In this document: positions 251-50,565 of the stretch, one piece after another | Layout: each line of letters opens with the position of its first letter | Position numbering within the stretch: the stretch's first letter is position 1 | Source: Chitinophagaceae bacterium | GTDB lineage: Bacteria > Bacteroidota > Bacteroidia > Chitinophagales > REEL01 | Length of the DNA: 50,565 nt | NCBI GenBank assembly: GCA_007695095.1 | Contig: REEL01000115.1 | Location: 1 to 50,565, forward strand | Reading direction: 5' to 3' | Made by a program: the position numbers and the translations under genes | Notes under the pieces: model-generated | The model's input: only the letters and a program-made list of their open reading frames with translations | What the model was told of the DNA's origin: nothing | The model's database searches: none

Positions 251-1195
251 ATGCTTAAGAAATCATTATTAATTCTCGGATTGGTTTTTACTTATTTTTC
301 ATTTCCAACCTTTGGTCAGCAGGACCCCCAGTACAGTATGTACATGTTTAATGGTATGTCTATTAATCCGGCATATGCAGGAAGCAGGGAAAAAATAAGT
401 TTGACAGCATTGTACCGTCATCAGTGGTCAGGCATGGATGGTGCACCAAGAACAATTTCATTTAACGCACACTCGCCATTATTGAATGATAGAATAGGGT
501 TAGGTTTAAGTGTTGTAAATGACAGAATAGGAGTAACTAATACTAATCATATTAATGGAGCTTATGCTTACAGGCTGCCAACTGATATAGGTCGATTGTC
601 ATTTGGTATACAAGGTGGATTTTCTCACTATAATTCAAGATGGTCAGATTTAGTATTGAATGATGCAGGAGATAATAATTTTAGTTCAAATTCTCCCAAC
701 TTATTTTTACCTAACTTCGGGTTTGGAATATATCTTTATGATCACAACAGGTATTATGTAGGAGTCTCAGCTCCTCAATTACTAAATAACAGCTTAAATG
801 AAAGCTTAAGTTTAGAAGGTACAAATAATGTAGCCCGTCAGTTTAAGCACTATTTTTTCACAGCCGGATATGTTGCAAAGCTTAATGAATTTATGAAATT
901 CAAACCATCAGTATTGCTAAAGTATGTACATGGTGCTCCATTGCAAGCTGATTTTAATGCAAGTCTATTGTTTTATGACGCATTGTGGGTTGGAGCTTCA
1001 TACAGAACAGGTGATTCGTTTGTCTTCATGGTTGAATACTACTTCGGAGAAAGATTTAGAGCAGGATATGCTTACGATTATACTATAACTGAATTGAATA
1101 ATTACACTTCAGGTTCACACGAAATAATGATAGGCTATGAATTTAGTCTGGATAAAGATGCTTACCTCACTCCGAGAAGAATATCATACTTCTAG
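251..1195 (+). CDS. PorP/SprF family type IX secretion membrane protein
   Basis: 314 residues. A signal peptide (hydrophobic residues about 5-20) ends in FGQ, followed by the family's N-terminal signature QDPQYSMYMFN and NPAYAGS. The rest is rich in aromatic, alternating-polarity segments expected of an outer-membrane beta-barrel, ending in an aromatic residue. PorP/SprF proteins act at the outer membrane with the T9SS; some are needed to export or attach specific type B cargo such as SprB. No cargo gene is adjacent inside the window: the upstream 250 nt are non-coding and the downstream gene converges on it, so this copy looks singly transcribed or is the last gene of an operon cut by the edge. 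Family assignment is firm; the specific partner is unknown. Confidence 0.9.
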   Translation: MLKKSLLILGLVFTYFSFPTFGQQDPQYSMYMFNGMSINPAYAGSREKISLTALYRHQWSGMDGAPRTISFNAHSPLLNDRIGLGLSVVNDRIGVTNTNHINGAYAYRLPTDIGRLSFGIQGGFSHYNSRWSDLVLNDAGDNNFSSNSPNLFLPNFGFGIYLYDHNRYYVGVSAPQLLNNSLNESLSLEGTNNVARQFKHYFFTAGYVAKLNEFMKFKPSVLLKYVHGAPLQADFNASLLFYDALWVGASYRTGDSFVFMVEYYFGERFRAGYAYDYTITELNNYTSGSHEIMIGYEFSLDKDAYLTPRRISYF

Positions 1196-41926: not shown

Positions 41927-43297
41927 TTATTGAACAATGAGTTTTCCGGAGTATAAGGGAATTCCCTGTTTTTCAATAGCAATCAGATAATAGCTGTCAG
42001 AAAGCATACTAATATCAATGCTTAATTTATTTGAGGTTTGAAAGTCAGTTTTAAAGCGCATTGCCTCTCTACCTGCCAAATCATAAATGACAACTTCAAA
42101 TATTTCATCAGTAAATATTTCGGATTCAAAGTACAAGGTTTCTGAAGCAGGGTTTGGGTAAAAATTTAATGAGAAAATATTTCTTGAACTTTTAATTTCA
42201 CTAATATCCGTAGTGGAAAAGTCAATTACCCAGGTGACCGCGTATAAATTTATAGATTCATATTGATCAATTCTTATCAATTGAGTTGTATCAGTTACAA
42301 TTGCTGTCAAATAGTTAATGCCTTGAATCAGCTCTTCTTCATTTAGGGATAACGAGTCTATGCTTTCAGGTTTTATAAGACTGTTCAATTCCCATTTAAT
42401 ACTCAATGAATTTGAAATGGGCTCAATTAAATCTAATTCAAATGATAATGGAAACTGAGAGGCTAAAAAAAACGAAGCTGAAGGTAAATAACTATTGATT
42501 GGATTTGTCAGAACATGGATCCTTTCTATAAAAGCTTCAGTACATACAGCGCAAAATGGAACGCCCAGTACTTCCATTTTACAACTTTCATGTGGTTTAT
42601 ACCATTGAGAGGAGTTCCCGCCGCAACAATGCTGAAAAATCCCAACATTAAAATCTCCGTACCAATTTTTCCATTTTACAGTAGCAGGATTGTTATTCAT
42701 TGTCATATTTGATAGTTCAGCAGCAAACTGATCGCCTGCCCAATATTCATCTGCTAAAAATGCAAAAGAATGTCCAATTTCATGAATCATAATTTCTAAT
42801 GACTGAACGTTTGTAGAAGCTGTTGCGACCCAACCTCCTGAACCGCCGTATTTTGTTGAGTTTACAATCATTAAGACCTGGTCATAGGTCGGAAAATGAT
42901 TAGCTAAAACATTCACTACTTGTGAATTATTCGTTGGCACCAATAATCTTTCAATACCTGCATACCAAAAAGTACTTCCAAAATAATTGTCAATCAAATT
43001 ATTGGGATCCATTGCAGCACCGGACTCATTGGAGGGGGTAAAAACAGAAACTACATTAAAATAGTTTATATACCTGTCAAACGGCTTTTCCAAAAATAGT
43101 CCTGTAACAATATTTTCAGCATCATCTGTGAATTTTTGGTATTCATGCTGTTGATAACCATCACCTAAGATTACTAAATTTATTCTTGATTCAGTACTGC
43201 CATTATTCAATAATGTGTCAACAATTATATTTTGCGAATTAGCAGTAAATGAAAAAATTAGGAACAAGGCTAAATAAAAATTTTTCATTTTATTCAA
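41927..43297 (-). CDS. Secreted M64 family metallopeptidase with T9SS sorting domain
   Basis: 456 residues. Signal peptide about 1-22 (ending ANSQ). The M64 (IgA-peptidase-like) domain spans about 35-270: it opens INLVILGDGY and carries the zinc site HEIGH (H172, E173, H176) with a third ligand likely in the ADEYW segment about ten residues later. A cysteine-rich stretch HCCGG and CAVC follow at about 225-255. The C-terminus is a type A T9SS domain (about 375-456; NFYPNPASE, DLAGREA), so the enzyme should reach the cell surface. Two starts are possible: 43297, overlapping the upstream lipoprotein gene by 8 nt, or 43288, giving a signal peptide three residues shorter. Substrate unknown. Confidence 0.9.
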   Translation of the reverse strand: MNKMKNFYLALFLIFSFTANSQNIIVDTLLNNGSTESRINLVILGDGYQQHEYQKFTDDAENIVTGLFLEKPFDRYINYFNVVSVFTPSNESGAAMDPNNLIDNYFGSTFWYAGIERLLVPTNNSQVVNVLANHFPTYDQVLMIVNSTKYGGSGGWVATASTNVQSLEIMIHEIGHSFAFLADEYWAGDQFAAELSNMTMNNNPATVKWKNWYGDFNVGIFQHCCGGNSSQWYKPHESCKMEVLGVPFCAVCTEAFIERIHVLTNPINSYLPSASFFLASQFPLSFELDLIEPISNSLSIKWELNSLIKPESIDSLSLNEEELIQGINYLTAIVTDTTQLIRIDQYESINLYAVTWVIDFSTTDISEIKSSRNIFSLNFYPNPASETLYFESEIFTDEIFEVVIYDLAGREAMRFKTDFQTSNKLSIDISMLSDSYYLIAIEKQGIPLYSGKLIVQ

Positions 43298-44972: not shown

Positions 44973-45596
44973 CTATCCTCTAAATAATTTGTGGATTAGT
45001 GAAGTGCGATTCTTTGTATACGTTTTTTGAAAAATATTCTTTAAGTGTGTCTTAATGGTGTTTTCGGAAACAAAAAGGGTTTGAGCAATTTCTTTGTTAT
45101 GCATACCGGTTTCTAAAAGTTTTATGACCTCAATTTCACTTTTTGTTAAAGAATGTTCTAAATAATTGTTTAGCCTTAAAATACTGCTTATTTTTTCTTG
45201 TTCTATATCCCTTTTATAGTAATTGATATATGCGAACTCCACAGCAATTTTTAAATTGATTTTTGTGAATGGTTTAAGAAGGTAATACATAGGGTGAACT
45301 TCCTTCGCCTTATCCAAAATTTTTTCTTCTGCATATGCAGTTAAAAAAATGATTGGTACCGGTAGGTTTTCATTAAACCAATGCCCGAGTTCGATGCCAT
45401 CATTATTGTTTTCAAGGTGAATGTCAAGAATGGCTAATTGTGGCTTATATTCTAAAGCATATTCTTTGGATTCAGCTATATTAAAAGCAGGCCCCACAAC
45501 TTCATAGCCCAATTCTTCAAGAGTGAGAGCAATATCGCCCCCAATAATGGCATCATCTTCTACAACAAGTATTTTAAAATTAGCTGACTTCGTCAT
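44973..45596 (-). CDS. Response regulator with LuxR-type DNA-binding domain
   Basis: 207 residues from the ATG at 45596. The frame is open to 45647, but the extra 17 residues would precede the receiver's natural start at KILVVEDD, so they are dropped. Receiver domain: acidic pair D14/D15, phosphoacceptor D58 in LAILDIHL, T86 and K108 (LLKPF). The C-terminal helix-turn-helix (about 145-205; LTKSEIEVIKLLETG, NKEIAQTLFVSENTIKTHLK) is of the LuxR/FixJ type, so the protein is a transcription activator. It overlaps the upstream kinase gene by 17 nt. The neighbouring cytochrome gene is a possible target. Confidence 0.93.
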   Translation of the reverse strand: MTKSANFKILVVEDDAIIGGDIALTLEELGYEVVGPAFNIAESKEYALEYKPQLAILDIHLENNNDGIELGHWFNENLPVPIIFLTAYAEEKILDKAKEVHPMYYLLKPFTKINLKIAVEFAYINYYKRDIEQEKISSILRLNNYLEHSLTKSEIEVIKLLETGMHNKEIAQTLFVSENTIKTHLKNIFQKTYTKNRTSLIHKLFRG

Positions 45597-47532
45597 GTAG
45601 TTTGAATTTTTTGATATTGTAAACAACCTGAGTACCGCCAAACTCATTATTATTATGGCATAAAGTTGCTTTTAATTTTTTAGAAAAAGTATCTATCATT
45701 TTTAAACCGAAAGAATCAGAACCTTTTTTGTCTGGTATAAATCCGCTGCCATCATCATTGATTTCTAATATCAATTCATTATTACTTAAAATAAGTGAAA
45801 TGTGAATATTACCGGTTTCTTTATCTTCAAAAGCATGTTTCATTGCATTCGTTACCAATTCATTGATGATCAAACCCAGAGGTATTGCAGTATCTATATC
45901 TACTCGTATTTTTTCAGAGTGGTTGTGTAGCTGAATATTTTTATAGGAAAGTTGAAAGGCTTCCTGATATTGATTAATCAATTGTTCTATGTATTCATGC
46001 ATTTCTATTTTTCTAAAATTTGATGCAGCATATAATTGGTGATGAATCAAACCAATAGCATTTACACTATTCTTACTGGATTGAACGGTTCTGACAGCTT
46101 CAGCATCTGTTATTGAAAGACTTTGTAAGTTAAGCAGACTTTGTAGCAATTGCAGATTATTCTTAATCCTGTGATGCATTTCATGTATCAATTCCTCTTT
46201 TTCTTCAAGGGCAATTGATGTTTGAGACATTGATTTTTTAAGTTTACTATTTAATTTTTGACGGTTAATTAATATAATGGTTGAGATTAAAAATAAAGCT
46301 GATAAGGAAATACTTCCAATTAAATATAATTGTTGCTGAGCCAGATTTTTTTCAATTTCGAGATTTTGTAAAGCGATTGTTTGCTCTTTTTCTTTTAGTT
46401 CAAATCTTGCCTGCATTTCTTCAATCGCCCATTGCTGCTGCTCATTATTTAAAATTTCAGTAAGTCGGGTATATTCTTTCCAGCTTAGTATCGCTTCAGT
46501 ATAGTTTTTACTATATTCCTTAGCGATAGCTCTTTCTTTATAAATTCTTCTTAATAAATCTAATCTTCCCGATCCTTTAACCAGAGAATATGCCATCTCA
46601 ATTTTTTCACTTCCTTCTTTTATCTTTCCGGCTTTTATTTCTATTGCACCCAGATAAGTAAGCCCTGCAACATATTCTAAAGGGTTTATTTTGCTTGTAA
46701 ACTCTAATCCGCTTTCTAATTTAACTTTAGCTTCTTCAAGTTCATTTAGATGAAATAACGCAATGCCTTTTCCAATATCAACAGCATGCATTTCATCTAA
46801 ACTATTTGTTTTTTCAAATAATGCTTCTGCATATTTAAAACTTTCAATGCTTTTTTTATGCTCATTCATATAAGAGTAAGCCAGCCCCTTGTTAAAATAA
46901 GTATAAGCCATCCCCATATTGTCATTTTCAAGTGATTTTAAATCAAGTGAACGGTCATAAACTTCTAAGGCTTTTACATAATTTCTCCTTTGACGAAAAA
47001 TAATTCCCAAATTGTTCAGTGCATGTCCCATACCTTCCTTATATTCAATACTTTCAGAAAGAAAATATGCTTTTTCATAGTGTTCTATAGCATTTAATAG
47101 ATTCCCCTCAAAAAAAAACGCAGCCCCCAGTGCATTTTCTAATTTTGCTACACTTAATAAATCACTATTTTCCTCTGCAAGATTAATGGCTTTTTGATAC
47201 TTTTTGTGAGCAGTTTGAAAGTCATCCTTGTATTCATAAGCCAGAGCTTGTTGATATAAATTCCATATTTTACCCTGAAGAAAGTCTATTTTCCTTGCCA
47301 GCTCATAACCTTTATTGCTGAAAATAAGAGCTGAATCCGGGTTTGTAGATAACAAATAATAAGAAATGTCCCTGTACAACCAAACTTTATTAGTGTCCGG
47401 AACAACATAATTTAAGCTCATAATCAGACTGTCATGCTCAGCCCTCAATAGACTATTACCGGAAATGTTAAATATTTCAAGGGTAAAAATTACAAGTAAA
47501 AGCAGAGTTTTTCTTGGACTAAACTTTTGCAT
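45580..47532 (-). CDS. TPR-containing HisKA_2-type sensor histidine kinase
   Basis: 650 residues: signal peptide or first hydrophobic segment (about 8-25), a periplasmic array of tetratricopeptide repeats (about 55-375; LGAAFFFEGNLLNAIEHYEKA, LNNLGIIFRQRRNYVKALEV), one membrane helix (about 400-420), a coiled linker, then the kinase. The H-box is MHHRIKNNLQLLQ (histidines 453-454, the second next to Arg being the probable phosphoacceptor), of the HisKA_2 group. ATPase motifs NELVTNAMKHAF, DDGSGF and FGLKMI follow. The TPR region is likely the sensor, reading a periplasmic or envelope protein. Its stop overlaps the regulator gene by 17 nt, so the two form a two-component pair. Confidence 0.93.
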   Translation of the reverse strand: MQKFSPRKTLLLLVIFTLEIFNISGNSLLRAEHDSLIMSLNYVVPDTNKVWLYRDISYYLLSTNPDSALIFSNKGYELARKIDFLQGKIWNLYQQALAYEYKDDFQTAHKKYQKAINLAEENSDLLSVAKLENALGAAFFFEGNLLNAIEHYEKAYFLSESIEYKEGMGHALNNLGIIFRQRRNYVKALEVYDRSLDLKSLENDNMGMAYTYFNKGLAYSYMNEHKKSIESFKYAEALFEKTNSLDEMHAVDIGKGIALFHLNELEEAKVKLESGLEFTSKINPLEYVAGLTYLGAIEIKAGKIKEGSEKIEMAYSLVKGSGRLDLLRRIYKERAIAKEYSKNYTEAILSWKEYTRLTEILNNEQQQWAIEEMQARFELKEKEQTIALQNLEIEKNLAQQQLYLIGSISLSALFLISTIILINRQKLNSKLKKSMSQTSIALEEKEELIHEMHHRIKNNLQLLQSLLNLQSLSITDAEAVRTVQSSKNSVNAIGLIHHQLYAASNFRKIEMHEYIEQLINQYQEAFQLSYKNIQLHNHSEKIRVDIDTAIPLGLIINELVTNAMKHAFEDKETGNIHISLILSNNELILEINDDGSGFIPDKKGSDSFGLKMIDTFSKKLKATLCHNNNEFGGTQVVYNIKKFKLHDEVS

Positions 47533-47795: not shown

Positions 47796-49259
47796 GTGAT
47801 TTTTAGAATTTTATCAAGCTTGTTTGTGGTATTTATATCTATTTCTTCTGAGGCTTCTCTAAGACTCAACGAAGTTATGGTAAACCCCAACCCCGGAACA
47901 AATACTTCTGAAGTTCAATCATTAGTAGATTGTGACAATCCAACTTTTGGAGCAGCATGGATTGAATTATATAATTTTAGTCAGTGTGATACAATTTTTT
48001 TAGACTGTTACATAGTTGCTTCTCAGACCTCAGGTTCTAATGGAGGAGCTTTTACATTTCCTGCAGGGAGTTTTATTGCCCCTCTGGATTTTGTGGTTAT
48101 CGGAGGGCCTGATGCGCCCAATGTAGATTATCTGTTGCCGGATTTTTGTAATACACCTTCTTTATGTACGTCTGATACCTGGTCACTTGCAAATGACTTT
48201 GGCTGGGTGGCTTTATATGCACCTGATGGGACTGTGACGGATGCTTTTTTCTATACTGAAAGTACAGGTCAGGCTACAGATTTAGGGGTTAACCCAAATT
48301 TTGATTTAGCGCCTTGTGTTCCTTTACAATGTGATAATTTAGGTGCTCTTCAGAAAGCAAACGAAATGACACCCGGTACAGAAATATTTTATACAGGCAT
48401 AGCTCCTCCGGCAGGGGAATCTAAAGCCCGGAGTGAAGATGGTTTAGGAAGTTGGCAAACAGTTTCTGTTCCTACACCGGGAGATTGTAATGGTACTTGT
48501 GCAGAACCGGACGATTTGGAAATTCTGATTGAAGTAGTTCAAAATGAGACATGTGAGCAATCTAACGGAATAGTTACTTTTAGTATTGAAGGTGGAAGTG
48601 AGCCATATTCAATTGAGTGGTTCAATGAATCTCAGCAGGATACTTTATTTAATTTGTCGGCCGGTGATATAGAAGTAGTAGTTACTGATGTTAATGGATG
48701 CCGAGATGAAGATTTTGCCTTACTGTTAAATGAAGGTGCACCACCTGATTTAGAAGTAATTCCGGAGAATCCGGCCATTTTTTTAGGAGAATTTGTTGGT
48801 TTAGAATTGCAGGCTTCAAATGCTATTGTTGACGCAGCTTGGTCTCCTTCTAATGGATTGAGCTGTCAGTCATGCCTAAATCCACTGGCTGCACCGGGAG
48901 TCACAACAACCTATAATGTAGAGGTGCTTGATGAGTTTGGATGTACCCAGTCAACAACTGTAAGGGTGGAGGTTGTAGATGATGCAGCTTCAATATTTAT
49001 TCCCAATGCTTTTACTCCCAATCAGGCGGAAAATAATCAATTATTTGTCAGAAGTCCGAGAATTCAAAGTATGAACTTCCGGGTATATGACAGATGGGGA
49101 AATGTTGTTTTTCAGACAACTACTCAATCTGAAGGCTGGGATGGAACTGACCCTTCCGGAAACCCATTGCAAACAGGTGTTTTTATATATCAGTTAGAAG
49201 TGGTTTTGGAAAATGGAACAGAAAGAACGCTAAGTGGTAATATTAATCTGATTCGATAA
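47796..49259 (+). CDS. Secreted lamin-tail-domain protein with type B T9SS sorting domain
   Basis: 487 residues from a GTG codon that opens a complete signal peptide (MIFRILSSLFVVFISISSEA). Residues about 22-215 form a lamin-tail-like domain (LRLNEVMVNPNP, AAWIELYNFS, FVVIGGPD). A SprB-like Ig segment follows (about 245-310; CEQSNGIVTFSIEGGSEPYS), then another Ig-like segment (about 315-395), and the end is a type B sorting domain (about 400-487; FIPNAFTPNQAENN, YDRWGNVVFQT, WDGTDPSGNPLQTGVFIYQL). Type B cargo needs a co-encoded SprF-like protein for export in Flavobacterium. Exactly such a gene begins 18 nt downstream, so the two should act as a pair. No start ATG gives a better signal peptide. 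Confidence 0.88.
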   Translation: MIFRILSSLFVVFISISSEASLRLNEVMVNPNPGTNTSEVQSLVDCDNPTFGAAWIELYNFSQCDTIFLDCYIVASQTSGSNGGAFTFPAGSFIAPLDFVVIGGPDAPNVDYLLPDFCNTPSLCTSDTWSLANDFGWVALYAPDGTVTDAFFYTESTGQATDLGVNPNFDLAPCVPLQCDNLGALQKANEMTPGTEIFYTGIAPPAGESKARSEDGLGSWQTVSVPTPGDCNGTCAEPDDLEILIEVVQNETCEQSNGIVTFSIEGGSEPYSIEWFNESQQDTLFNLSAGDIEVVVTDVNGCRDEDFALLLNEGAPPDLEVIPENPAIFLGEFVGLELQASNAIVDAAWSPSNGLSCQSCLNPLAAPGVTTTYNVEVLDEFGCTQSTTVRVEVVDDAASIFIPNAFTPNQAENNQLFVRSPRIQSMNFRVYDRWGNVVFQTTTQSEGWDGTDPSGNPLQTGVFIYQLEVVLENGTERTLSGNINLIR

Positions 49260-49277
49260 AACATAATTAAGTTTATA

Positions 49278-50327
49278 ATGTACTCTATAAAAAATATACT
49301 CGGTCTGATTTTGCTATTAATTACAATCGTATCTCCTAAAATCTCATCGTCTCAGGATATTCATTTTTCACAGTTTTATGCTTCACGCTTAATTGTAAAT
49401 CCTGCTATGACCGGTTTTATTAATGAAGAATATAGGGTAGGGGCACAGTTTAGAAGTCAATGGAATGGTTTTACTAATGGCTATACAACTATTGGAGCTT
49501 CCGCAGAGGGTAGTTTTTTTAAAGGTCGCTGGAGAGATGATTATTTTGGGGCAGGCCTCCAAATGTATCGTGATTTTGCCGGGGATGCCGCCTTGGGGAA
49601 TAATACGATAGCCCTTTCAGGAGCATATAGCAAAGGCCTGGGAAATGATGGCAGACATGCTCTTGCTCTTGGTTTTCAAGCGCTTGCCTATCAGCTTACA
49701 ATTAATCCCGGAGATTTATACTTTGATAATCAATATAATGGAGTAATTCTGGATACCGATATTCCTCCATCTTCATTTGTTAATTCAGCTTCAGATATTA
49801 GTTTTGATTTAGCTGCCGGACTTAATTATCATTTTATCCCGGGAGATGCCTTTAATTTTTATGCCGGTATTTCCGCTTATCAGATTTTAGAATCTGAAGC
49901 TAATCTTTTAACGGAAGGAGTTGCAAAAAGAAATCGTAGATATACCGCACACTTTGCCGGTGATTTTTATGTGAGCCGGCCCATGAATATTTTAATTGCC
50001 GGGATGTATTTACAGCAAGCTTCTTTAAGACAGATTAATACCGGATTTATGTTACAGTTTTTTCTGGATGATCACAACTTAGAATCACCTACACGCTTTA
50101 ATATCGGGACTTTTTTAAGATATTCTTCTCCTTTACCGGATGCACTTATTGTCTCTGCCAGAATGGATTACCAAAATGTTTCCCTTGGCATGTCTTATGA
50201 TTTTAATATTTCCGGATTAAATACTTCTTCCGACTTTCGCGGAGCTTATGAATTAAGCCTTTTCTACAATGGTCTTTTTACAACTGCAGGGCAAAGAAAT
50301 TTTGTAATGCCGTGCCCAAGTTTATAA
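49278..50327 (+). CDS. PorP/SprF family T9SS membrane protein paired with the type B cargo
   Basis: 349 residues with a signal peptide (about 1-25, ending SSQ) and the family's diagnostic start QDIHFSQFYASRLIVNPAMT. The body has the strand pattern of an outer-membrane barrel with repeated aromatic-ended strands. The start is 18 nt after the type B cargo stop, so they share a transcript. By analogy with SprF and SprB, it should support export or anchoring of that cargo at the cell surface. A further PorP/SprF gene follows 114 nt later from its own probable promoter. Confidence 0.93.
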   Translation: MYSIKNILGLILLLITIVSPKISSSQDIHFSQFYASRLIVNPAMTGFINEEYRVGAQFRSQWNGFTNGYTTIGASAEGSFFKGRWRDDYFGAGLQMYRDFAGDAALGNNTIALSGAYSKGLGNDGRHALALGFQALAYQLTINPGDLYFDNQYNGVILDTDIPPSSFVNSASDISFDLAAGLNYHFIPGDAFNFYAGISAYQILESEANLLTEGVAKRNRRYTAHFAGDFYVSRPMNILIAGMYLQQASLRQINTGFMLQFFLDDHNLESPTRFNIGTFLRYSSPLPDALIVSARMDYQNVSLGMSYDFNISGLNTSSDFRGAYELSLFYNGLFTTAGQRNFVMPCPSL

Positions 50328-50372
50328 AAAGCTAAAAATTTTACTTTATTTATTGCCTAAAACTATAAGTAA

Positions 50373-50404
50373 TTTGTATTGCTGAGAAAATTATATTTAC
50401 TTTG
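50373..50404 (+). promoter_or_regulatory. Promoter for the last PorP/SprF gene
   Basis: TTTG (50373-50376), 20 nt, TTACTTTG (50397-50404), one mismatch from TAnnTTTG. The leader is about 35 nt before the ATG at 50442. This suggests the third PorP/SprF copy has separate transcription from the cargo operon. Confidence 0.45.
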
Positions 50405-50441
50405 CTAAAATTTCATTTTTTATTAAAATATTGAAGTGATT

Positions 50442-50565
50442 ATGAAAAAGTTAAAATTGTGGATTAGCGCTGCTTTTATTGTATGTGTATCCACATTGAC
50501 AACCGAAGCCCAGGACATTCATTTTTCTCAGTTTTACAACTCGCCCCTGACGTTGAATCCATCCT
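50442..50565 (+). CDS. PorP/SprF family protein, 5' part cut by the window edge
   Basis: Only the first 41 codons are present. They encode a signal peptide (MKKLKLWISAAFIVCVSTL, cleavage after EAQ) and the family opening DIHFSQFYNSPLTLNPS. This matches the start of the preceding PorP/SprF protein (QDIHFSQFYASRLIVNPA) almost residue for residue, so the two are likely tandem paralogues. Confidence 0.88.
   Translation, partial: MKKLKLWISAAFIVCVSTLTTEAQDIHFSQFYNSPLTLNPS

Follow-up and report, generated by a model that had tools for sequence, protein, structure and literature searches.

The analysed window is the whole of a 50,565-nucleotide contig (C115) of a 3.49 Mb Chitinophagaceae genome assembled in 186 contigs. 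At its right end lie, on the forward strand, a type B T9SS cargo gene with a candidate lamin-tail domain (LTD), a complete PorP/SprF family carrier gene (PorP1) and the start of a second PorP/SprF gene (PorP2) that is stopped by the contig end. The ORF coordinates bear out the original prediction in that a gap of 18 nt joins the cargo to PorP1 and the next PorP gene starts 114 nt further on. All features of this locus are collected in Table 1.

Table 1. Features of the cargo-carrier locus and of the PorP genes adjacent to cargos elsewhere in the genome
Feature	Position	Strand	Description
Type B T9SS cargo	47796..49259	+	GTG start, 487 aa; putative signal peptide, LTD-like, SprB-repeat-like, Ig-like and type B CTD parts
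Cargo LTD-like domain	aa 17-154		
Cargo SprB-repeat-like stretch	aa 246-275		
Cargo type B CTD	aa 401-487		
CHU_C / TIGR04131 type B sorting domain of cargo	48996..49244	+	
PorP1, PorP/SprF family carrier	49278..50327	+	349 aa, complete, predicted 14-stranded beta-barrel, single Cys346 in C-tail
PorP2, start of second PorP/SprF gene	50442..50565	+	41 codons, stopped by contig end
66-base block common to the ends of C115 and C118	50500..50565	+	final 55 bases identical
Nine cargo-adjacent PorP genes			C73, C94, C107, C127, C106, C56, C115 PorP1, C79, C153

The assignment of the first gene as a type B cargo, as originally predicted, holds, since its C-terminus exceeds the cut-offs of TIGR04131 (41.8 bits against 35) and of CHU_C (50.2 against 27 bits). 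Its N-terminus is hydrophobic by eye, its GTG start codon abuts the preceding in-frame stop, and the protein contains 14 cysteines. The LTD (PF00932) scores close to its Pfam cut-off of 34.3 bits, reaching 31.6 bits by hmmscan, just under this value, and 34.7 bits in a six-frame scan, slightly above it; all seven sequences of the cargo ortholog alignment match the domain at E ≤ 0.01, the best at 2.3e-12. The structure model of the cargo, with a pLDDT of about 25 over the N-terminal half, did not resolve the LTD. The domain may have an adhesive or surface-binding role.

The prediction had further regarded an LTD as an unusual displayed part, and this holds within the genome without being unique to it. 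Among the ten other LTD proteins of the genome, seven carry the type A signal TIGR04183 above its cut-off, one narrowly misses it (22.1 versus 23) and two carry neither signal, while TIGR04131 was found in none of the ten at E ≤ 0.01. One of the two with neither signal, encoded on contig C118, reaches 27.5 bits with CHU_C, barely above the Pfam cut-off of 27. The cargo is the only protein with a clear type B signal among the 11 LTD proteins of this genome; the same combination is present too in G091, a genome of another family.

Divergent from the cargo gene, overlapping ORFs (44973-47532, minus strand) encode a TPR/HisKA_2 histidine kinase and a LuxR-type response regulator, which are possible candidate regulators. 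In six relatives the divergent neighbour is instead an ORF of ~260 aa, with NlpC/P60 and SH3 in the one that was scanned (L131). Another gene of the window (41927-43297, minus strand) encodes a member of the M64 (IgA) peptidase family that carries a type A T9SS sorting domain.

PorP1 matches TIGR03519 with 146.9 bits (cut-off 90.55) and PF11751 with 119.8 bits, likewise over the cut-off. The AF2 model, at medium confidence (mean pLDDT 61), is a 14-stranded barrel with the C-tail free past the final strand. A Foldseek search with this model matched FadL and, in the T9SS translocon entries 8gl6 and 6h3i, chain F, the chain of PorV. The tail of PorP1 ends in PCPSL, and the Cys-X-Cys motif that marks the C-tail of SprF-type gliding carriers is absent from it, Cys346 standing alone.

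A cargo profile was run against 396 genomes of the order. Full-length cargo orthologs are present in seven of these (the genome itself and six others), and two more harbor longer LTD-bearing proteins. Gene order in related genomes had been named as a check on the prediction, and in all six relatives a PorP1 ortholog (41-43% identity in the alignment) lies directly downstream of the cargo; five of them show a 4-nt overlap of the two coding regions, and in G059 the overlap is about 20 nt. In the family of genome G020, six of the seven sampled genomes possess the cargo. The exception, G081, also shows no PorP1 ortholog, its best PorP match being only 33% identical and, in a phylogeny of 43 PorP sequences, clustering with the PorP of contig C107 rather than with PorP1. 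This tree combines the 14 PorP rows of the genome with the 29 nearest matches found in other genomes; in it, the seven LTD-linked PorP1 proteins group together as a single clade (support 100/99), and Cys346 is the sole cysteine of the mature protein in all seven. The dedicated export module originally envisaged is thus supported for the cargo and PorP1, which are adjacent in 6/6 relatives and both missing from G081, whereas the proposal that both SprF-like genes serve the cargo is not supported. In genome G047 (L126, 1945-16001, minus strand), the LTD cargo and PorP1 are followed by proteins of 1570 and 1821 aa with type B-like ends and then by a PorP gene, an arrangement that constitutes a multi-cargo array.

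At E ≤ 0.001 the genome contains 14 PorP and 41 CHU_C matches. Nine of the 14 PorP genes begin 7-117 nt behind a CHU_C gene on the same strand, as determined from the Pfam scan and ORF gaps; these replaced a regex for upstream type B CTDs, which had overlooked the cargos at C73, C94 and C107. From the numbers of both families in 3.49 Mb, we estimate that well under one such neighbour would be expected by chance. Pairing of a PorP gene with a type B cargo gene immediately ahead of it is therefore the rule in this genome. For Flavobacterium johnsoniae, an excerpt of PMC12618676 gives nine of 12 type B genes as adjoining a SprF-like gene. A further PorP gene, on C68, adjoins GldK. The left end of the window carries a complete PorP/SprF gene of 314 aa (251-1195, plus strand), which scores highest in the genome with PF11751 (279 bits) and is devoid of a tail cysteine; the contig includes 250 bases upstream of it. 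On contig C146 (5362-7812), a partial GldK-like (perhaps GldJ) protein has as its neighbour a PorP-like gene with the tail KCPGILRF.

Tandem PorP genes are scarce, as by eye one pair was found among 135 PorP matches in seven related genomes. This pair, in G059 (L242, 2308-7384, minus strand), consists of two separate PorP genes that follow an SprB-repeat/type B cargo and precede a TPR-PD40-OmpA (PorE-like) gene. A single 739-aa frame spanning both PorP genes was ruled out because the translation has stops between them. Cargos with two carriers therefore exist, albeit rarely and elsewhere than at the locus of this cargo.

The genome encodes SprA (2747 bits) and GldK (601 bits), the latter followed by GldL-like and GldM-like genes as judged by eye, and hence a T9SS is likely. 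Excerpts of the literature describe type B cargos as dependent on a cognate PorP/SprF carrier, often encoded by the next gene downstream (PMC12618676), and PorP/SprF carriers as anchors of type B cargos (PMC9143113); the type B CTD is collected at SprA by its own carrier, which stays bound to it afterwards on the surface (PMC9143113, PMC12618676). Judged from gene order, co-inheritance and domain content, the cargo and PorP1 are very probably cognate partners of this kind in type B secretion, with PorP2 probably outside the module. The cargo would cross the inner membrane via its putative signal peptide and would then be routed through the SprA translocon by its type B CTD. PorP1, which is probably made from one transcript with the cargo, would take up the cargo and remain bound to it, thereby keeping the LTD-bearing protein at the cell surface. 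Since crosstalk of carriers among cargos with similar CTDs is reported in PMC12618676, PorP2 or another paralog could serve the cargo as well. Among the literature matches listed, there was no paper on an LTD type B cargo-PorP pair and nothing on tandem or converted PorP genes.

The cysteine in the tail of PorP1 may additionally tie the cargo-carrier complex to GldK. According to PMC12635249, the C-tail of SprF is disulfide-bonded to Cys343 of GldK, this cysteine is conserved in PorK, and PorK Cys356 is the PorG-interacting residue. GldK of the present genome has two cysteines, that of the lipobox and Cys295, and the latter aligned with PorK Cys356. Because of this alignment and the lone tail cysteine of PorP1, a disulfide between both proteins is possible, and Cys346 of PorP1 may be linked to Cys295 of GldK. 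Against this speaks that PorP1 offers one cysteine as opposed to the Cys-X-Cys of SprF; the same source reports that only a minority of a single-Cys SprF was bonded to GldK and that gliding was not supported. A cysteine within the final 10 residues is found in 8/14 PorP matches of the genome itself, so that the tail cysteine is no special feature of PorP1; among the nearest matches in other genomes the figure is 29/29, in a sample that is skewed in favour of PorP1.

The 41-residue fragment of PorP2 reaches 14.1 bits with PF11751 (cut-off 22.3), and its mature start, AQDIHFSQFYNSPLTLNPS, resembles those of the other PorP genes of the genome. Its terminal 66 bases equal those of contig C118 at 65 positions, and the two contigs break off at one and the same base. 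The copy on C118 sits about 120 nt behind a PKD/type B cargo of 955 aa. Of the 19 codons at the mature N-terminus, 18 are identical between PorP2 and the C118 carrier, versus 393 of 963 (41%) shared-residue codons in all other paralog pairs. The encoded residues are shared with the C118 carrier at 19/19, with C107 at 17/19 and with PorP1 at only 13/19 positions, and on this ground an origin of PorP2 by tandem duplication of PorP1 was rejected. The sequences of C115 and C118 that precede the signal-peptide cleavage region are unrelated. Because of the C118 match and the common end base, we regard PorP2 as repeated sequence and not as a tandem copy of PorP1; it seems to be a paralog of the C118 carrier that was duplicated or converted not long ago. 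The shared contig end would reflect an assembler break at the repeat, with the shared part missing from the bin. C118 carries SprA and a type B cargo-PorP pair on one contig (134940-142097 and 169420-169934).

A truncated PorP on C77 was dismissed as the missing right part of PorP2 owing to sequence mismatch, and a PorP-tail pattern, which also misses the tail of PorP1, gave five matches versus 12 in the control. A candidate promoter near 50374 (TTG-20-TTACTTTG, one mismatch), which would have spoken for PorP2 being transcribed separately, was discarded, such matches occurring ~3.4 times per kb on this strand. A sigma-70-type scan gave 17 matches versus 12.2 (sd 3.6) after shuffling, and a terminator-like scan gave three versus 2.5, so that both stay at or barely exceed the shuffled level.

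As to the role of PorP2, the chances are about even that it stands here incidentally, either as the carrier of another type B cargo encoded past the contig end or as a spare copy of the carrier of the C118 cargo. The codons common with the C118 carrier argue for this, and in G047 proteins with type B-like ends and one more PorP come after the pair; on the other side, the assembly has no sequence to the right of 50565 and the shared 55 bases were found on no other contig of the assembly. This reading concerns PorP2 alone and is compatible with a cognate cargo-PorP1 pair. It is doubtful that, beyond this, recent gene conversion or duplication keeps one barrel sequence nearly the same under differing signal peptides and behind various cargos, and that the single-Cys CPxL tail of PorP1-type carriers acts as a non-exchangeable GldK tether. 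If this were true, the LTD cargo would have beside it a private, vertically inherited carrier and a shared mobile one, and display by PorP1-type carriers would be static instead of gliding.

That PorP1 and PorP2 both serve the LTD cargo and divide the labour, one in export and the other in anchoring or delivery, we consider unlikely. Their tandem position behind the cargo and the two-carrier cargo of G059 with its OmpA/TPR PorE-like gene would fit such a division, but no second PorP is the next gene after the pair in any of the six relatives, the mature start of PorP2 is nearer to C107 and C118 than to PorP1, PorP2 is duplicated behind another cargo on C118, and tandem pairs are as rare as described above. 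The predicted service of PorP2 to this cargo is not supported: the gene is not conserved with the cargo, and what it closely copies is the carrier on C118 rather than PorP1. A single carrier gene whose upstream segments differ among cells, that is, a rearranging or strain-variable locus in place of two fixed copies, is very unlikely: the sharp onset of identity near the signal-peptide cleavage region with unrelated DNA upstream would suit it, but the binned contig that it predicts, beginning with the 55-base overlap, was not found, and the loss of a short repeat, present twice, through a length threshold would be a simpler explanation. PorP2 is probably a separate carrier gene of another subfamily and not part of the cargo-PorP1 module.

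The probable cognate pair of cargo and PorP1 belongs to an already known class, that of an ordinary surface protein with its outer-membrane carrier. It shares with SprB-SprF of F. johnsoniae the type B CTD of the cargo, the PorP/SprF gene directly downstream and the lack of an adjacent porE-like gene, but SprB is a 669-kDa repetitive adhesin whereas the cargo here is an LTD protein of 487 aa, and the Cys-X-Cys tail of SprF contrasts with the one cysteine of PorP1. In the PG1035-PorP-PorE system of Porphyromonas gingivalis, a PorP-family barrel likewise holds a type B cargo; this organism, however, has a single PorP and PorE as peptidoglycan anchor, compared with 14 PorP matches here and no PorE-like gene beside the cargo and PorP1 up to the contig end. 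Fjoh_3952-Fjoh_3951 of F. johnsoniae resembles the pair in that cognate cargo and carrier genes are adjacent and differs in that a PorE-like gene comes after Fjoh_3951, whereas another PorP comes after PorP1.

The PorP2 repeat is a warning that tandem PorP genes at contig ends may be unrelated paralogs. The cargo and PorP1 would provide a compact, conserved cargo-carrier pair in which an LTD protein is displayed in place of a giant adhesin, which would aid the question of carrier specificity, and PorP1, with its single-Cys tail, opens the GldK-tether model to testing in carriers other than SprF.
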